Source: Thermosinus carboxydivorans Nor1
Lineage (GTDB): Bacteria; Bacillota; Negativicutes; Sporomusales; Thermosinaceae
DNA length: 64,000 nt
Direction: 5' to 3'
NCBI RefSeq assembly: GCF_000169155.1
Contig: NZ_AAWL01000001.1
Coordinates: forward strand, 202,001-266,000
In this document: piece by piece, positions 30,522-39,414 of the stretch
Layout of the letters: the number at the start of each line of letters is the position of its first letter
Position numbering within the stretch: position 1 is the stretch's first letter
Notes under the pieces: generated by a model
The model's database searches: none
Told to the model about the DNA's origin: nothing
The model's input: only the letters and a program-made list of their open reading frames with translations
Program-made: the position numbers and the translations under genes

Positions 30522-33239
30522 TTACCGCCGTGAAGTTAAATAGTGTTTGATCAACATTAATACTAGTAAAATCCCGGCTGCCCAAAAAACCGCTTGCTCA
30601 TATTTTTGCCCCAGCCGCGCTATTCGTTCCCAGAATGTCCGCAAGAAACCTGTCCATGCGGCATCACTCTCATCAGCCGGCTGAGCGTCAGCAATTTTGA
30701 ACGGCAAAAGTTGACTCGCGCCGCCAACCAAAAAAATATTGCTGGCTAAATTTTGCTGTTCATTGAGTTTGCGAATAGCACCGGCAAGCGCTGATGCGTC
30801 GCTGCTGGCAGTAATGCTTAGCAGCGGGCAGCCCTGCCAATTGCCGATCTGGCCAACAATCGTATTGACGACCGGATGATAGCGGTAAGTAACCGCTTGC
30901 CCCTCGTTATTAAGCAAAGTATAGCCTTTTCCCCTTTGGAGCGGGAATGCCTGCCAAAGCTCTTCGGGGATAGCTTCCGCCAGTCCTAATACCGCGAGAT
31001 AATCTTGTTTTAGCCATTGCTGCCAATCTTTTAAAAAGGCGACCAATGGATAAGCATATTCGCCTGGCGGCAATTGCCGGTTCAAATACAGCACGAGTTC
31101 TCCCACCGCTCGAATAGCGTCAGGGGACGGATTATCGCTTATTAAAATAGCTCCTTTTTTATTAAACAGCATGCCGATATTGTCCCAGGTAAGTTTATCA
31201 ACCGGCAAACGCGCGTTGCCGGCAAAATAACTTGATTGAAAAATTTGCGCCGAGCGTATGGTCCCCTTAACCTGGCAGTAGCCCGCTTCTTCTGGATAGA
31301 CAAATTGGATACTTAAAGCATTTTTGCTTTTCAGCGGCACAGATGGCGGCAAACTGATTTCTTTGTTTATTTTGCCTGACCCGTCGAGCGCTTCGCTGTG
31401 GATTAGCGCCCGGTTAAAGTAAACATCAAGGCGCACCTGCTTGCCGGATATGTTAGCAGGGCTGTAACGCCCTTCCAAATGGATGGTAATGCTCCGCGGC
31501 GCTTCTGCGAGCAAAGCGGGATAGAGGGTAAAGTCAACCGGAATACTTAAAATTCCTTCCTGGGGCCCATTGTTGCCGAAAAAAACTTTATCTCTTTCCT
31601 TAGCCGCCGCAGCCGCCGGCAAACTTACACTAATATTAGCGCTGTTGGCGGCCTGTAGCCAGTCGGTCCGCCCTAACTGGCGCGATAAATTGTACAAGTT
31701 GCCCTCATCTTGGGCGGTTATAAGCACCAGATCGGCAAACGGCAAATGAATCCCCTGGGTATACCCAGTCAAATTAGCGGGAAGGTTATTATGGAGCGCG
31801 ACCCACACCCGCGGCACTTCCGGGTAATTGCCCCGCTCACCGGCCAAAATCAGTTTCACCGGCAGATAAGGATACTGTTTCTGCAACTGGGCATAGGCCC
31901 AGGAACCGGCCGTAATTTCCGCCAGCGTGGGTTGGTCAGGGATGACCACTAATAAGCCGCTCGTTAAGCCGGCGAAAAACTCGGGCACGGTCTTGGGGAT
32001 AACCGGATTATAGTTATAGATTACCCCGGACTGGTTGCGGATGATATAGAATAAATGCCCGCGCTCGTAATCGGCGCAAAGGTCATTGGTGGCAAAAAGA
32101 TTAGCAGCAATCGCAACCCGTAAGCTGCCGCTTTGCAGCATATCTTGCGTCAAAGGCAGCTGAATGGCAGGCTTTTTTCGCAGCTGGCCGGCCGAATAGA
32201 ACGCTGCCGCCCGGTCATTGATATAAATGGTAAAATTGCTCTGATCATTCAGGAACGGTCCCGGTTCCACCGTTAAACTGGCCATGCTGCCAGGCAAAAG
32301 ATTTAGGCGCGGCGCCGGGAAAGAGAAAGTCACCGCAGTTTTAGCGCCGGTAACGGTTATATCCTGCTCATAACCGATTTGTTGCAGCGTAATTGCCGCT
32401 GTTTTCGCCAGCGCCTGGTCGGGCAGCGCCAGCATGAGAGCGAGGACGGCAATGGCTCCCGCACGCCGGCCAACCTTGAGCGCGATTTGGCTGAAACGCG
32501 GCTGGCCGTCTTCAACCTCGACAATCGCTGCTTTGACCGTTTGCGCCTGATGTACGGCGGCCAGCGAAGTTTGATAATGAACCGCCAGGTCAACCGGGGT
32601 GACGGCCGGCCGGTGCTTGCGCCGCTCAAGGCGGCCATAACGCCAGTAGTTCCACTGGGCCCAACCAAACAAAATTAAGAAGACAATGCCGGCCCACCAA
32701 ACGGAAAGCTTCATCATTTCAACCGTGCTTTCAACCGCCGCCAAGTCAAACAGCTCCGCGTCGATCAGTTTAAAACCGATTAGCCACATTAGCACTGTCG
32801 CCAGCGGCTGAATAAGACTGATAAACGTTACCCATATCGATAGTGAGAACAAAAATTCTACCAGGCGTAAAAACGGTTTTCTTAGCCTTGGGGTATCAAT
32901 GACGTTGGTCGCAAAATCTCCCACGGCCGCCGTTTGTTCACCAGCTAATAGCACACGGTAAAATGCAATAGTTATTTGTTTAAGCCGAGTGTAAAGGGGC
33001 GCTATCAGCCAGCTGGCCAGCCGGTACAGGAAAAAAGCGATGATTAATAAAGCCGCACCGTGAAAAGCGCTCGCCATAAATTGCCGGGCGGCTTGGGGCG
33101 CCACCGGCCCAAATTGCATTATTAAATTGGCGAATATGAAGCTGACTATATAGCGGCGCGGCAATAACCTAACCGCTAGGCGGGATTGGTAGCGGCTGCG
33201 CCTGGTTGCCGAAATTGGTACATAATGCAATTGCACCAC
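30522..33239 (-). CDS. PgaD-like/BcsB fusion, exopolysaccharide synthase subunit
   Basis: 905-residue membrane protein. Roughly residues 1-250 hold four hydrophobic segments and the cytoplasmic stretch WAQWNYWRYGRLERRKHRP, which resembles the PgaD subunit of poly-GlcNAc synthase. After a further hydrophobic segment (AIAVLALMLALPDQALAK) the rest, from about residue 280, matches BcsB, the periplasmic carbohydrate-binding partner of cellulose synthase, ending in a C-terminal anchor (AVFWAAGILLVLMLIKHYL) and SRR. It follows pgaC by 17 bp. The start is a GTG at 33239, or a TTG at 33230 with GAGGTG 6 nt upstream. PgaC plus this fusion should form the inner-membrane synthase. The BcsB half is secure; the PgaD reading rests on a short motif and on context. 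Confidence 0.8.
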   Translation of the reverse strand: MVQLHYVPISATRRSRYQSRLAVRLLPRRYIVSFIFANLIMQFGPVAPQAARQFMASAFHGAALLIIAFFLYRLASWLIAPLYTRLKQITIAFYRVLLAGEQTAAVGDFATNVIDTPRLRKPFLRLVEFLFSLSIWVTFISLIQPLATVLMWLIGFKLIDAELFDLAAVESTVEMMKLSVWWAGIVFLILFGWAQWNYWRYGRLERRKHRPAVTPVDLAVHYQTSLAAVHQAQTVKAAIVEVEDGQPRFSQIALKVGRRAGAIAVLALMLALPDQALAKTAAITLQQIGYEQDITVTGAKTAVTFSFPAPRLNLLPGSMASLTVEPGPFLNDQSNFTIYINDRAAAFYSAGQLRKKPAIQLPLTQDMLQSGSLRVAIAANLFATNDLCADYERGHLFYIIRNQSGVIYNYNPVIPKTVPEFFAGLTSGLLVVIPDQPTLAEITAGSWAYAQLQKQYPYLPVKLILAGERGNYPEVPRVWVALHNNLPANLTGYTQGIHLPFADLVLITAQDEGNLYNLSRQLGRTDWLQAANSANISVSLPAAAAAKERDKVFFGNNGPQEGILSIPVDFTLYPALLAEAPRSITIHLEGRYSPANISGKQVRLDVYFNRALIHSEALDGSGKINKEISLPPSVPLKSKNALSIQFVYPEEAGYCQVKGTIRSAQIFQSSYFAGNARLPVDKLTWDNIGMLFNKKGAILISDNPSPDAIRAVGELVLYLNRQLPPGEYAYPLVAFLKDWQQWLKQDYLAVLGLAEAIPEELWQAFPLQRGKGYTLLNNEGQAVTYRYHPVVNTIVGQIGNWQGCPLLSITASSDASALAGAIRKLNEQQNLASNIFLVGGASQLLPFKIADAQPADESDAAWTGFLRTFWERIARLGQKYEQAVFWAAGILLVLMLIKHYLTSRR

Positions 33240-33256
33240 CTCGCCATGATGTTTTC

Positions 33257-34510
33257 TTACAACTTTTCAAATAAGCCGCGGTCGGGGCTTTGCCAAACCG
33301 CCAGTTTCCCCTTGCTATGGCCAAATAGCGCCCGCGGCGCCGCCCAGACGGTCGCCAAAGCAGAAATAACCCAATATACAAATGGATACCAAATAACCCA
33401 AAAATAATACCATAAGATATTTTTTTCGTAGCGACGGTCAATCCATAAAGCAATCGCTGACTGGACAAGGCATAACGATACCAAAACCGCTCCCTTCCAT
33501 TCCGGGAAAATCTTTGCCACCGGCAAATCATGGGGAAAAATGAAGTTCAGCAACCACAGCCCGCCAAAACTGACGAAAGCATAAGACCAACAAACGGAAA
33601 TTACATATTCAATATATACCGGCCACAGCCGCCGCTGCCGCCAATCGGTCCAAATACCGGCATGGCGGCGGATTACCTCTACCCCGCCTTGGGCCCACCG
33701 CACCCTTTGCCGCCAAAGCCCTTTAAGTGTTTCCGGGACCAAAATCCAGCATAAGGCGTTGGGTTCATAGCGTACATCCCAAAAATGTTTTTCCAACTTC
33801 CAGGTAACATTAATATCATCGGTAATCATATCGATGTCCCACAAGCCGACATCTAACAGCGCCCGTTTGCGAAAAGCGGCAATTACCCCCGAAACGGTCA
33901 AAACTTTCCCTAGTATCCGCTGGGTCCGTTTAATCATGCCGATTATTGATGAATATTCACCGACTTGGATCTTGGCGATTAAACTTGTCCGGTTACGCAC
34001 CCGGGGATTCCCCGTAACCGCCCCGACGCGCGGCCCGGCAACAAAATGAGCAACCAGCCAGCGCATGGCATTGGCATCCAAAAAGGCATCGGCATCCATC
34101 GCCAGAATAATTTCCCCGCGGCAAGCCATTAGCCCGTAGCGCAGCGCTGACGGCTTACCCATATTTTGCTTCATTATTAACACTCTGACCGCTGGGCATT
34201 CGGCCGCCAGTTCCAGCAAAATGCGCGGCGTGGCATCCGTACTGCCGTCATCGACAACAACAATTTCAAAGTTAGGATAATTGGACTTAAGCACACTGGC
34301 GATAGTAGCCCGGATACTCTGTTCTTCGTTGTGCGCCGGAATCAGCACCGATACCAAAGGATACTCGGCGAGCACCGGCGGCCGCCTTCGCCTCCCTGCT
34401 TCCCGCCGCAAATAAAAGTAAAAAGCGCCGACAATCCAGACAATACTCATTACTAGCGGATAATAAAAAACAAATTCGCTGAGAAACCAAATCAAATCCT
34501 TGGCAGCCAT
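33257..34510 (-). CDS. pgaC: Poly-beta-1,6-GlcNAc synthase (GT2), PgaC
   Basis: Processive family 2 glycosyltransferase of 417 residues. An N-terminal membrane segment leads to the catalytic domain with SVLIPAHNEEQSIRATI, VVVDDGSTDATPRIL, ILAMDADAFLD, ITDDINVTWKLEKHFWD and the QRVRWAQGG signature, followed by C-terminal membrane segments. These are the D, DxD, TED-like and QxxRW motifs of PgaC/IcaA enzymes, which polymerise UDP-GlcNAc. It sits between pgaB (12 bp upstream) and the PgaD-like/BcsB fusion. Confidence 0.93.
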   Translation of the reverse strand: MAAKDLIWFLSEFVFYYPLVMSIVWIVGAFYFYLRREAGRRRRPPVLAEYPLVSVLIPAHNEEQSIRATIASVLKSNYPNFEIVVVDDGSTDATPRILLELAAECPAVRVLIMKQNMGKPSALRYGLMACRGEIILAMDADAFLDANAMRWLVAHFVAGPRVGAVTGNPRVRNRTSLIAKIQVGEYSSIIGMIKRTQRILGKVLTVSGVIAAFRKRALLDVGLWDIDMITDDINVTWKLEKHFWDVRYEPNALCWILVPETLKGLWRQRVRWAQGGVEVIRRHAGIWTDWRQRRLWPVYIEYVISVCWSYAFVSFGGLWLLNFIFPHDLPVAKIFPEWKGAVLVSLCLVQSAIALWIDRRYEKNILWYYFWVIWYPFVYWVISALATVWAAPRALFGHSKGKLAVWQSPDRGLFEKL

Positions 34511-34522
34511 GAATAAACCCCG

Positions 34523-36388
34523 CTAAAAAGGCAGCTGCGCCATTTTTGATGAGTAAATGTTTAAAGGATAGTAGCCGATATTAACCGCGCCGTTTTCCTT
34601 CAATATGGCGACTTGTTTTTTCAAAACCGCCGGCGCGATCCACCGTTTTTTCTCCCAGTCATAGGCTTGCAGTTTAAATACCGTCCGCTCCGCCGCGCCA
34701 GGATAAGCCAGGGCCGCTTTGGCTAGATCGGCCAGCCACCGCTCTGGCTTTGGCACTTTTTCCAGGGCAGGATAACACATAATCACCGTGTAGTCATAGA
34801 GCTGGAGAAACTCGGCGTAATCCTGCGCTAGCCAGGCTTTGGCCTCAGGGCTTAGCACCGCGCTCGGATAAATATTGCGGGCAAACTTAGCCTGCGGGCG
34901 GTAGCGGCGCACCTCGTCCATCAACTCGGCCGTTAACTTATTCATAGCTTGCACTTTCAAATTAATCCATTCCTGCCGGACTTGCGGGTCATTTAGCGCC
35001 GCCGGCGTCAATTCACGGTTGAATTTTTCCCGGAAGGCTGCTTTGGCGGCCGGCGAAAAGTCTTCGTAATCGTTCAGATATAAATCATCCTGGAATAAAA
35101 TGCCGTCAATCGGATTATAGGCGGCTAAATCGCGAAAAACTTTTTTGAGTTCGGCCGCCACGCGCGGACTAAACGGGGTAGCGCGACGGTACCAGCCCTT
35201 GTTTTTATTATCCCAAGCCGCAACCTCATCTTCCGGGTGCCCGGTAAGCAGCCATTGGCCAGCCAATGTCGGCATCCAGGCGTAGACTTGGAATTTTTCT
35301 CGATGCAAGCGCTGGATAATATGATTTAAAACGTCTTTTTTCACCGGAGCGGCGGAAGTATAAAAATATAGTTCTTGGATATTGCCCGTTCCCTGCTCAT
35401 CGGCAAAGGATTGCAAAATAACGGTGTTTATTTTGGCTTTGCGCAAATAAGCGATGGCCGTTTCCAGATTTTCCGCCATTTGCTGTGGCGAAGCGTCGTA
35501 GATTAAATCGATATCCAGTTGACCTACTCTAAGGGGCGCCTGGATTTTCCCCGTTTGCACATATGGGGCGATCTTTTCAGCGGCCGGATTATTATACACT
35601 ATCATCCGCCTAACCCCTAATTCGCCATGTAAGGCGGTAGCCCCATTATTTTCTAAGGTGAACAGCAGCTGAAACCCTTTTTTATAGGCTTCATCAATCG
35701 CGATTTGGGTGTATTCACCATAAGGCCAAACGAGAACCCGGCTGGGATGCCCTAAATGGCCGCTTATTACCCGTTGGGTAATCTCAAGATCGGCAGCAAT
35801 GCGCTGACGGTAACTGGCTTCGCTTTCATAACTACCATCCTTATAAATAAATGTCGAAACGGCCTGCCCTAAATCACCGTCGGGATTTGCGGGCACGTAC
35901 CGGTGCAAGTCATGCGTGTGCGACGCGATCGTCACCAGCCCGGATTGTTCCATCTCCCGCATTTGTTCCCATGTTACCAGCGGCCCGATACCAGCCGGCG
36001 GCTCTGTCTGAAGCCAAGAGGTAACTACCGCCAATACCGCCGGATATTTATATTCTTTAAGCAGCGGATAAACGTCGGTATAAAAAGAAAGGTAGCCATC
36101 ATCAAAAGTGAGCATTACCGCTTTGTCCGGCAAGATTGCCAGCCCCTGTTTGGCTTTTAAATATTCTTCCACGCTTATTGGCTGAAAGCCGTTCGTTTTC
36201 AGCCATTCAAAATGTTCGCGCAGCCGCTCCTTAGTAACGGTATAAGGATTTCCCCGGGGATTGCCGATATCGTGATAACAAAGGACCGGCACCTCTGGCG
36301 CCGCTTGTACGCCGGCAGCGGCCCCGGAAATTGCCACAATATTTAACAGAAATACCAAACCTACTAATAAACAGCACTTTCGCAGCAT
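34523..36388 (-). CDS. pgaB: Poly-beta-1,6-GlcNAc N-deacetylase, PgaB
   Basis: Periplasmic two-domain enzyme of 621 residues that partly deacetylates poly-GlcNAc before export. After a signal peptide (LLVGLVFLLNIVAISGAAAG) the NodB deacetylase domain has MLTFDDGYLSFY (D96, D97) and the metal His pair in SHTHDLHR (157-162). The C-terminal half has the PgaB glycoside-hydrolase-like domain with DGILFQDDLYLND. Both domains look complete, as in the Gram-negative PgaB. It follows pgaA by 10 bp. Confidence 0.93.
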   Translation of the reverse strand: MLRKCCLLVGLVFLLNIVAISGAAAGVQAAPEVPVLCYHDIGNPRGNPYTVTKERLREHFEWLKTNGFQPISVEEYLKAKQGLAILPDKAVMLTFDDGYLSFYTDVYPLLKEYKYPAVLAVVTSWLQTEPPAGIGPLVTWEQMREMEQSGLVTIASHTHDLHRYVPANPDGDLGQAVSTFIYKDGSYESEASYRQRIAADLEITQRVISGHLGHPSRVLVWPYGEYTQIAIDEAYKKGFQLLFTLENNGATALHGELGVRRMIVYNNPAAEKIAPYVQTGKIQAPLRVGQLDIDLIYDASPQQMAENLETAIAYLRKAKINTVILQSFADEQGTGNIQELYFYTSAAPVKKDVLNHIIQRLHREKFQVYAWMPTLAGQWLLTGHPEDEVAAWDNKNKGWYRRATPFSPRVAAELKKVFRDLAAYNPIDGILFQDDLYLNDYEDFSPAAKAAFREKFNRELTPAALNDPQVRQEWINLKVQAMNKLTAELMDEVRRYRPQAKFARNIYPSAVLSPEAKAWLAQDYAEFLQLYDYTVIMCYPALEKVPKPERWLADLAKAALAYPGAAERTVFKLQAYDWEKKRWIAPAVLKKQVAILKENGAVNIGYYPLNIYSSKMAQLPF

Positions 36389-36398
36389 GTTGGCCTCC

Positions 36399-39272
36399 TT
36401 ACCATATCATGCGATACAAAAGGTCGAACTGGCGATAGCCGAACCGGCTACTGCCCCGGCCAAGAGCATCACCGGTTCTCGCCCCATATTCAGTTCCAAG
36501 CAGCAATAGCCGGTCAGGGCCAAAATTAAACGCTCTTTCAAGACGCAGGTAGGGGTTTAGCGCTAAAGGATCGGGATAGTCCCTGTCCCAATTTAAGGCC
36601 AGCCGCCCGTACCAATAACCATTGGGGCGGTTAATGATTAAGTCCCAGCCCAGGGCAGCCGCTTCGCGCAGCGAAGGGCTTTCGTAAACCAAGTCTTGCT
36701 TGCTATACCATGACCTGCTCCACGTTAAAAACCGCGCGAGCGACATGTTCCCACGGCTGAACAAGTTTTTGGTTTGCGCCAGGGAAAACCCGAAGGCTTG
36801 GTTTTCATCGGTGTAAAGCTCGCGGTTAAGCGTCAAGGTATAGGTATCCTTGGCATTTGCCTGATAGGTTGCGCTCAGGCTATAGCCGTCGACCATGACC
36901 GGCCCGCCGTTTAGCGGGCTTAAGGCCTGGACATCCAGCACCGGCGACCGGTAAGCGGCCAAGCTCAGCTTCAGCCGGTCGTGTACGGTATGGGCTATCC
37001 GCGCGCTCCAGGTCGCAAAAGTTGTTTGAGCATTTGTTTGTCCGTACCATAAAGTATATTCATTTTTCCCGCCGATATAGCCAATCCCAATATTATTACT
37101 ATCTAAAATTTGCCGTTCGTTTGCGCCCCAGTCATTTAGCCAATAGCGGCGGCTGTCAGCCATCAGCCAATAATTGTCGCCTCCATTTTGTTCGCCATAA
37201 ATTTGCCATTGCCGCGAGCTGAGCTGTTTATAACTCGTGTTATAAATATAGCGCACGTCAAGCTGCCCAAGCCGCCGCTGGTCGTACTGAGTCATAATGG
37301 CCGCTACGGCTTTGCTCTTGCCATACCGCCCGGCCAGCGCCTCATAAGCCTGCCGCGCCTTTTGATAATCATTGACGGCCAGCGCCGTTTTCAGCATTCC
37401 GGTCAGGCCAGCCGCTTCGCCGTCAGGTGTTTGCGCCAGCGCGTAATACTGCTGGTAAGCCGCCAGGTGTAGTCCGCTGCCGGCTAACGCCTCGGCGTAC
37501 TGCTGCCGGTAAACGGCCTTGCCGGGATACTTTTTAACAATCAGCTCAAATAACGCTCTTCCAGGTACCAAGTGTCCGGTAGCGATAAGGGAACTAGCCT
37601 GGTTAATGGCAACGGTGGCTTTATCCGGATATATTGCCAAAAGCTCATCATATACGGCTAATCCCTCCCAAATTTTCCCTGATAGTAAAAGGTAAAAGGC
37701 CGCTAAAAACTGATAGTTTCCGTCGTCAGGGCTGCGTACGGCCAAGTGCCGATAGATGGCAATCGCTTGTTCATAGTCTTTTAGCTCAATATAGCAATCG
37801 GCTAAGGCTTGCAAACCAAAAATAGGGGCGTCAGCCAGCTTGGGCCACAATAATCCGGCCGTATAGACAGCCAGGCGGGCCTGGCGGCTGTTACGCAATG
37901 CCAAAATATAATTGCCTTCCATGTTTTTCGTAGCCGTCCGGTTGGCAATATATGGCTTCAAAGCTACTATCGCCTGCGCCGGCTGATCAAGATTGATAAA
38001 CGCGGCTGCCAGCTCGCCAGCAATGCGGCGCCGCAAGGCGCTATTCGCCTCATCGTCAGGGATTAGGCGCAGCGCCATCTTATAATCAGCCGCCGCCTGA
38101 GAGTATTCCTGGCGACGCATTGAGCTGTCCGCCCGGCTTAAGTAAGCTTGAATATCTTGCTTGTTTTCCTTTAAAAGCTCATCATAAAGCTCATAGCTTT
38201 TAGCCTTGTCGCCTTTTTCCAGCCACAGCTCGGCTAGCCGCACTTTCGCCTTACGGTCACCTTGGTCCGCCACTGGCTGAATAGCAGCCATGGCCTGCTC
38301 AAGATTGCCTGTCCGGCGGTACGCGTCGCTGATATAAATGCGAACATAGTCGGGAATGTCTTGGGTCCACAGCGCTTCATAGTTTTTGATCGCCGCTTCG
38401 TTATGACCGGCCCAGGCTAAAATAGTTATATAATCAAAAGCAATGCTTAAGTCATTGGGTTCTTGTTTTTTCAGCCAGTCTAACAGCGTGATGGCCTCAT
38501 CATAGTTTCCCTGCCTGGCAAGCGCCACTGCTTGCTCATGCACCTTTCGCAGCTGGGTTTGGCCACCTTCGGCCCGCAGCTTTTGCCAGTTTGCCGTTGC
38601 CGGCTTTTCCCATTTAAACATTGCCAGCGCTTGAACATAGCGCGTTTGGTAATCAGACCGGCTGGGATAATAGTTGATTATTTTTTCAAATAATGCCCGC
38701 CCCCCAATGACGTTGCCCTGGGCCAATAGCGCGACAGCATCTTCGAGTGCAATATCAGCGTATTTTTCCTGTTTAAGACTTAGCACCTTATCATATAGCT
38801 GCAATCCTTCCCATACCTGCCCGCCGTAAACAAGCGTATACGCCAAGCCAACCTGGGCCTCTAAATCGTCAGGCTGCTTGCCAACAATTGCTTGATACTC
38901 AGCCTGGGCTTGCGCGTTTTTCCCCAGCCTGGCATAACTTTCCGCCAGCAGCTTGGCGGCCTGCGCCGGCCGCGTAGCTGGTTCAGGCCAAAGCTTGGCA
39001 ACCTCTTCGACGGTGCGCTCATATTGCCCGTCTTGGAAAAGCCGGTTTAAATAGTCCAGCTGCCGTCTTGTTTGCTCAGTGGTTTCCGCTTTTTTGACTT
39101 TAACCGCCTTGACAACATTGTCAGGGCTGGCCGTCTTTTCCACTACAATTGCTTCGGCTTTACTTAAGGGAGGCTGAACAGTACCGGGCTCTGCCGGCGC
39201 CGCTTCACCGGCTTTGTGTTCGGCAGCAATAATTAATGAAGTTAACGCAAACAATAGCTTTTTAATTTTCAT
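36399..39272 (-). CDS. pgaA: Poly-GlcNAc outer-membrane export protein, PgaA-like
   Basis: 957 residues from an ATG at 39272 with GAGGTG 4-5 nt upstream. A short signal region (KIKKLLFALTSLIIAAEHKAG) is followed by a long array of TPR-like helices (for example AYTLVYGGQVWEGLQLYDKVL and a near repeat AAFYLLLSGKIWEGLAVYDELL), then about 290 residues of alternating beta strands from LDVRYIYNTSYKQLSS to the C-terminal aromatic end RMIW. TPR plus C-terminal beta barrel is the PgaA layout. It heads the pga operon, and its outer-membrane barrel is further evidence of a diderm cell. Confidence 0.88.
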   Translation of the reverse strand: MKIKKLLFALTSLIIAAEHKAGEAAPAEPGTVQPPLSKAEAIVVEKTASPDNVVKAVKVKKAETTEQTRRQLDYLNRLFQDGQYERTVEEVAKLWPEPATRPAQAAKLLAESYARLGKNAQAQAEYQAIVGKQPDDLEAQVGLAYTLVYGGQVWEGLQLYDKVLSLKQEKYADIALEDAVALLAQGNVIGGRALFEKIINYYPSRSDYQTRYVQALAMFKWEKPATANWQKLRAEGGQTQLRKVHEQAVALARQGNYDEAITLLDWLKKQEPNDLSIAFDYITILAWAGHNEAAIKNYEALWTQDIPDYVRIYISDAYRRTGNLEQAMAAIQPVADQGDRKAKVRLAELWLEKGDKAKSYELYDELLKENKQDIQAYLSRADSSMRRQEYSQAAADYKMALRLIPDDEANSALRRRIAGELAAAFINLDQPAQAIVALKPYIANRTATKNMEGNYILALRNSRQARLAVYTAGLLWPKLADAPIFGLQALADCYIELKDYEQAIAIYRHLAVRSPDDGNYQFLAAFYLLLSGKIWEGLAVYDELLAIYPDKATVAINQASSLIATGHLVPGRALFELIVKKYPGKAVYRQQYAEALAGSGLHLAAYQQYYALAQTPDGEAAGLTGMLKTALAVNDYQKARQAYEALAGRYGKSKAVAAIMTQYDQRRLGQLDVRYIYNTSYKQLSSRQWQIYGEQNGGDNYWLMADSRRYWLNDWGANERQILDSNNIGIGYIGGKNEYTLWYGQTNAQTTFATWSARIAHTVHDRLKLSLAAYRSPVLDVQALSPLNGGPVMVDGYSLSATYQANAKDTYTLTLNRELYTDENQAFGFSLAQTKNLFSRGNMSLARFLTWSRSWYSKQDLVYESPSLREAAALGWDLIINRPNGYWYGRLALNWDRDYPDPLALNPYLRLERAFNFGPDRLLLLGTEYGARTGDALGRGSSRFGYRQFDLLYRMIW

Positions 39273-39414
39273 TTGCCACCTCAAAGCTAAGCTTTGGTAT
39301 TCGCCTCGCAAAACGGGTATTAGATGAAATTTTGACTTTTTTTAAAAGTTTTCCTATCCCAATGCGAATTTTTGCTAATATTTTTTTGTAAGCAAACGGA
39401 GCGGCTAAAATTAG

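Follow-up and report, generated by a model that had tools for sequence, protein, structure and literature searches.

A PgaD-BcsB fusion in a predicted poly-N-acetylglucosamine operon of Thermosinus carboxydivorans

The last gene of a pgaA-B-C-fusion operon in Thermosinus carboxydivorans Nor1, a Firmicute with an outer membrane, found in the stretch of 64,000 nucleotides analyzed here (the window), encodes PgaD and BcsB in one reading frame. Taken as a whole, the observations are probably best explained by an operon for the biofilm sugar poly-beta-1,6-N-acetylglucosamine (PNAG) that has PgaD and a BcsB-type subunit made as a single translation product, the BcsB part being positioned on PgaC and passing the polymer onward, and cleavage at the junction being probable. 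The fusion as such is a late detail, and the main news is the presence of BcsB in a pga operon.

Operon layout and gene assignments

The four genes are closely packed on the minus strand, separated by gaps of 10, 12 and 17 bases, and are in order of transcription:

36399..39272, minus strand: putative pgaA-like outer-membrane exporter of 957 residues, with an N-terminal TPR solenoid and a C-terminal beta barrel ending in Trp
34523..36388, minus strand: pgaB, periplasmic PNAG N-deacetylase with a glycoside-hydrolase-like domain, 621 residues (TIGR03938, PF14883, PF01522)
33257..34510, minus strand: pgaC, PNAG synthase of family GT2, 417 residues (TIGR03937)
30522..33239, minus strand: pgaD-bcsB fused frame, 905 residues from a GTG start (PF13994 and PF03170)

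With open reading frames at these positions, all on the minus strand, and profile matches above the cut-offs for PgaC, PgaB, PgaD and BcsB, the canonical order of pgaA, pgaB and pgaC claimed by a first-pass annotation of this DNA is borne out. PgaC scores 541 bits against TIGR03937 (PgaC_IcaA; cut-off 422) and is 45% identical to its counterpart in Escherichia coli K-12, and its GT2 motifs are invariant across 13 relatives. PgaB likewise scores well above the cut-off of its profile (570 bits against TIGR03938, cut-off 322), carries the C-terminal glycoside-hydrolase-like domain and is 36% identical to E. coli K-12 PgaB over 616 columns. The predicted product of the operon is the machinery for synthesis and export of PNAG.

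The weakest assignment is that of pgaA, which is probable from its profile matches, its position, the TPR-plus-barrel layout, the C-terminal aromatic residue and syntenic relatives. Its start is placed at an ATG, the mechanical open reading frame being longer and beginning at a TTG at 39311. Against TIGR03939 the protein reaches E=1.3e-30, yet its 106 bits fall below the curated cut-off of 367; the profile search furthermore gave a match to PF21197 (E=5e-4) as well as many TPRs, and BLASTP of the window PgaA against E. coli PgaA gave no convincing alignment. Aligned to the PgaA proteins of relatives it is 26-39% identical, and the C-terminal Trp is found in it and in every Negativicutes PgaA examined.

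Relative to most relatives, the window PgaA (36399-39272) has an N-terminal TPR extension of about 200 residues, and the PgaA of genome G016, which also carries the fusion, is longer still. The lengths are 957 and 1191 residues, respectively, versus 747-838 in the non-fusion relatives examined. Long PgaA is found only in those two fusion operons in which pgaA is complete, which is only a hint that it may be linked to BcsB; a general tie between the two was not supported, since split-gene BcsB operons have PgaA of normal length.

Domains and fold of the fused reading frame

The fused frame can be divided as follows:

32901..33239, minus strand: N-terminal extension, residues 1-113, with two predicted membrane segments
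32514..32900, minus strand: PgaD domain, residues 114-242, with two membrane segments and the stretch WAQWNYWRYGRLERRK
32406..32474, minus strand: retained signal-peptide-like segment, residues 256-278, which aligns with the N-terminal signal peptides of separately encoded BcsB and contains a candidate signal peptidase I site
30603..32405, minus strand: BcsB periplasmic region, residues 279-879, with carbohydrate-binding-like and flavodoxin-like domains in series followed by an amphipathic helix
30531..30599, minus strand: BcsB C-terminal membrane anchor, residues 881-903, from hydrophobicity and a model helix over the same residues

PgaD is recognized both by TIGR03940 (60 bits over residues 113-244, cut-off 31) and by PF13994 (49.5 bits over residues 114-242, cut-off 27), and Trp193 and Asn197 of the fusion align with Trp71 and Asn75 of E. 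coli PgaD. BcsB matches PF03170 with 56.6 bits (cut-off 21) from residue 280, and by profile and fold a complete BcsB spans residues 279-903. In a Foldseek search the modeled BcsB half was matched to cryo-EM chains of E. coli BcsB, the best being 9fmt_E with E=8.7e-28 over 655 columns, and since this covers nearly the whole length, the protein contains a complete BcsB including amphipathic helix and tail anchor rather than a fragment. The AlphaFold2 model, built from 14 sequences, is of moderate quality (mean pLDDT 65.9, pTM 0.52) and is weakest in the PgaD half and at the junction; in the BcsB tail it has helices at 860-879 and 881-903. Hydrophobic segments are located near residues 30-48, 53-84, 122-161, 172-194, 252-272 and 879-903.

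The first-pass annotation had described the 905-residue frame as PgaD joined to a full BcsB, and had named a PgaD profile match for the N-terminal part as a test of that description; the matches above their cut-offs and the fold agreement uphold it. Its PgaD-like N terminus with four hydrophobic segments stands as regards PgaD itself and has to be redrawn as regards the segments, the first two of which belong to the N-terminal extension, a feature common to the stand-alone "long" PgaD of relatives.

The junction

An alignment of the fusion with the unfused genes shows that nothing but the pgaD end and the bcsB start codon has been replaced, and that the BcsB signal peptide stays. At the junction a candidate signal peptidase I site is found at A276-L277-A278|K279, and the A-x-A motif is kept in all three known fusions (LPDQALA|K, VPTPAWA|A and TPLSAEA|V), in each case after a hydrophobic core of 14-16 residues and a proline. 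The PgaD part is rich in Arg and Lys after its fourth segment and by predicted topology ends in the cytoplasm, so that the junction segment, modeled as a helix at residues 256-271, would point outwards as a signal peptide must. The call is based on the motif and on the alignment with true BcsB signal peptides. In a rough control with a loose count, [AV]xA followed 34 of 183 PgaC and PgaD membrane segments (about 19%), and a single instance of A-x-A therefore means little; the three fusion sites furthermore share ancestry and are not independent.

In the window gene there is no in-frame ATG, GTG or TTG at residues 228-268, and BcsB with its signal peptide can therefore not be made separately, which led us to reject translation from an internal start for this gene. 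In the G016 fusion ATG 246 is preceded by GGGAGG, and separate translation of BcsB is possible there. The fusion product may accordingly be a polyprotein that is cut into PgaD and BcsB, and a precedent for processing of this kind is provided by the cytochrome b/c1 precursors of bacteria (FbcH). The single hybrid protein of the first-pass annotation is correct as one reading frame, but with a signal peptide and A-x-A in three of three fusions it may mature into two proteins.

Distribution and origin of the fusion

Among 380 genomes of the class Negativicutes, Pfam searches identified 35 with a PgaD match and eight with a BcsB match; with G008, whose BcsB was found using the window protein as query, the class has nine BcsB genomes, and in six of these BcsB is linked to PgaC or PgaD. 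The PgaD-BcsB fusion is present in three genomes from three genera, namely the window genome, G008 and G016, the same in-frame join occurring in the two others at 44% and 42% identity and the operon order being identical in one of them. A survey of Negativicutes for this domain order, as proposed in the first-pass annotation, has thus yielded two further genomes, and the same result answers its question of whether the frame is an artefact. Its statement that a hybrid lies where pgaD should be is true of the window, while in the operons of relatives separate pgaD and bcsB are adjacent, following pgaC with a 25-base gap in G038 and a 4-base overlap in G132. Since the two are neighboring separate genes in these relatives, the fusion arose when the intervening stop and start were lost. 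The fusions cluster together in the BcsB tree (support 80/95), which is consistent with a single fusion event. In G048 bcsB is found 5' of pgaA in the pga operon. Most pga operons in the class are without bcsB, and PNAG export in general therefore does not require BcsB.

Of the named records, two metagenome assemblies are closest, Negativicutes bacterium SKW2 and Selenomonadales bacterium D180. Two copies of a dispersed repeat of some 137 bases (L057:5075-5211 and L021:11170-11306) share 92% identity, one located at the end of a contig and the other upstream of the fusion gene in G008. In this genome the fusion was not seen beside pgaC, and G008 was set aside as clean synteny support because the repeat that terminates its pgaC contig is also located upstream of the fusion. 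In the sister species G001 pgaC was not found, and its pgi is located where a contig ends. No further fusion was obtained when 398 genomes from across the phylum were searched with profiles, and a pattern scan of contigs based on seven diverse sequences gave no usable conserved pattern; a scan based on the three fusions, which is of low sensitivity, returned only the two already known, by way of two short patterns. A 1031-residue frame in G190 was rejected as a PgaD fusion, since its PF13994 match lies within a sensor-kinase-like protein.

Other arrangements were also encountered. At L027:2920-11149 the pga operon is rearranged and contains pgaB twice, the genes being transcribed in the order C-D-A-B-B. 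BcsB lies within Bacillus yda-type operons in G009 and G012, and G684 also has such an operon; in G124 the partner of BcsB is a GT2 that contains an MshEN domain. At L046:4146-7996 and L083:2465-6388 a BcsB-like protein adjoins a GT2 synthase with an N-terminal MshEN of the c-di-GMP-binding type (confirmed by Pfam in the former and assigned by eye in the latter), and such loci, found in two classes of the phylum, may represent a separate c-di-GMP-controlled polymer system. Finally, ydaJKLMN-like operons of Negativicutes at L070:3853-12777 and L071:5748-14718 are followed by a protein of about 665 residues, part of which resembles a coiled coil and whose C-terminus resembles a barrel, and these operons are possibly a form of the Yda polymer system that involves the outer membrane.

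The synthase served by BcsB

In none of the six genomes whose BcsB is pga-linked did a CelA/BcsA exceed the TIGR03030 cut-off. In the window genome the best match to a cellulose synthase catalytic subunit is PgaC itself, and in G038 a 38-bit match on another contig is under the cut-off. PgaC is therefore the only evident partner of BcsB, and this suggests that a BcsB has been recruited to PNAG synthesis, the main evidence being the absence of a cellulose synthase catalytic subunit above the cut-off. PgaC and PgaD are furthermore encoded as a single protein of 598 residues in G033 (L032:8101-9897), and on the reasoning that fused proteins interact, this fusion and the PgaD-BcsB fusions together argue for a single PgaC-PgaD-BcsB complex. 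No PNAG synthase structure was found in the PDB by sequence. The window genome has seven GGDEF matches, and c-di-GMP signaling is therefore available to it.

Proposed mechanism and alternatives

In the mechanism that we infer, PgaC would polymerize GlcNAc, and the PgaD part would be its activating membrane partner, probably responsive to c-di-GMP; PNAG in E. coli is made by PgaC and PgaD under c-di-GMP control (PMC8461298). The BcsB part would be located on the periplasmic face of PgaC, held by its C-terminal helix, and would hand the polymer, as it emerges, on to PgaB and to the PgaA TPR domain. Such a guiding role for BcsB, which was also suggested in the first-pass annotation, is plausible by analogy with cellulose synthesis, since the E. 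coli BcsB semicircle tethers BcsC via its first TPRs (PMC11379886), and the TPR domain of PgaA is bound by PgaB (PMC5933820). Signal peptidase I probably cuts after Ala278, which would give PgaD and BcsB at 1:1.

Without cleavage the junction segment would become a fifth transmembrane helix, leaving a permanent fusion with one BcsB per PgaD and a fixed stoichiometry on PgaC. This is a real contender that falls somewhat short of being probable: the frame is single and uninterrupted, the same order is kept in three diverged genomes, and BcsA-BcsB fusions are known to function as single chains (PMC8461298, PMC7112194), but the short cores followed by proline and A-x-A in every fusion have the layout of a signal peptide and not that of a stop-transfer helix. 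On the junction itself we slightly favor signal peptidase cleavage over the additional helix. The fullest form of the proposal, in which a polyprotein cut at the retained signal peptide would put equimolar PgaD and BcsB on PgaC and thereby form a three-subunit PNAG synthase with an exit built from BcsB, is advanced tentatively, as possible but rather doubtful. It is on the other hand unlikely that BcsB acts mainly through its tail helix as an activator or scaffold of the synthase rather than as a polymer guide. BcsB is indeed part of the catalytically active core of cellulose synthase, where its transmembrane helix touches BcsA (as cited in passages of PMC8461298 and PMC10374906), and both halves of the fusion would then be synthase partners; however, the entire periplasmic architecture has been kept, which is beyond what an anchor needs, and the role of activator is already filled by PgaD.

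That BcsB should serve a separate cellulose synthase and merely be located in the pga operon is very improbable, although its name and its history tie BcsB to cellulose synthase. We rejected such a role in the absence of any catalytic subunit above the cut-off in the six genomes, the best CelA match in the window genome being PgaC; in five of these six BcsB is moreover either fused to PgaD or part of the pga operon, the exception being G008 with respect to its arrangement relative to pgaC. The chance that assembly or sequencing has erroneously joined two genes is close to nil: two of the three fusion genomes are metagenome assemblies, but the in-frame join recurs in all three independently assembled genomes at 42-44% identity, with the linker taking the place of no more than the stop-start stretch found in the split genes, on which grounds an artefact was rejected.

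Relation to known systems

The operon resembles E. coli pgaABCD in its pgaA-B-C order, in the PgaC and PgaB identities given above and in the conserved Trp and Asn of PgaD. E. coli PgaD is however an unfused protein of 137 residues and its operon is without BcsB, whereas the window has a PgaD with an N-terminal extension, BcsB following in frame, and a longer PgaA. Bacterial cellulose synthase BcsA-BcsB shares the BcsB fold and the C-terminal anchor, and its BcsB is in some species fused to a membrane partner (PMC7112194, PMC8461298), but in the window the partner synthase is evidently PgaC, while BcsB is fused to an accessory subunit, PgaD, instead of a catalytic one. A GT2 and a BcsB-family protein also occur together in Bacillus ydaJKLMN, which differs in its synthase, deacetylase and sensor, and the BcsB of such operons in the relatives is placed on a distant branch of the tree.

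A further parallel is pssA-E of Listeria monocytogenes, in which a GT2 closest to PNAG synthases (PssC) is followed by a BcsB orthologue, PssD, and for which it was suggested that BcsB may accept other polymers (PMC4125290). Since PssC and PssD have been described there, BcsB beside a GT2 similar to PNAG synthases is not without precedent. Listeria nevertheless has one membrane, no other ica/hms genes in the pss operon and no fusion, the presumed c-di-GMP sensor is PssE with its degenerate GGDEF, and the product is, according to a statement in PMC5933820, a polymer rich in N-acetylmannosamine and galactose and not PNAG. BcsAB, BcsZC and PgaB fusions have been reported in an operon survey (PMC7112194). 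The literature searched, which covered few subscription papers and no preprints, contained neither a PgaD-BcsB fusion nor a combination of BcsB with PgaD, PgaB and PgaA, and the novelty of both is provisional.

Implications

BcsB has so far been studied as a subunit for cellulose, and a full pgaABCD with BcsB suggests that this periplasmic part can serve another polymer. A lineage with BcsB in the pga pathway furthermore constitutes a natural test of the role of BcsB, and the existence of PNAG operons with and without it inside one bacterial class leads to well-defined loss or swap experiments. If the polyprotein and the three-subunit synthase proposed here are true, BcsB would be a general exit subunit for polymer synthases of the c-di-GMP-controlled GT2 type and not one specific to cellulose.
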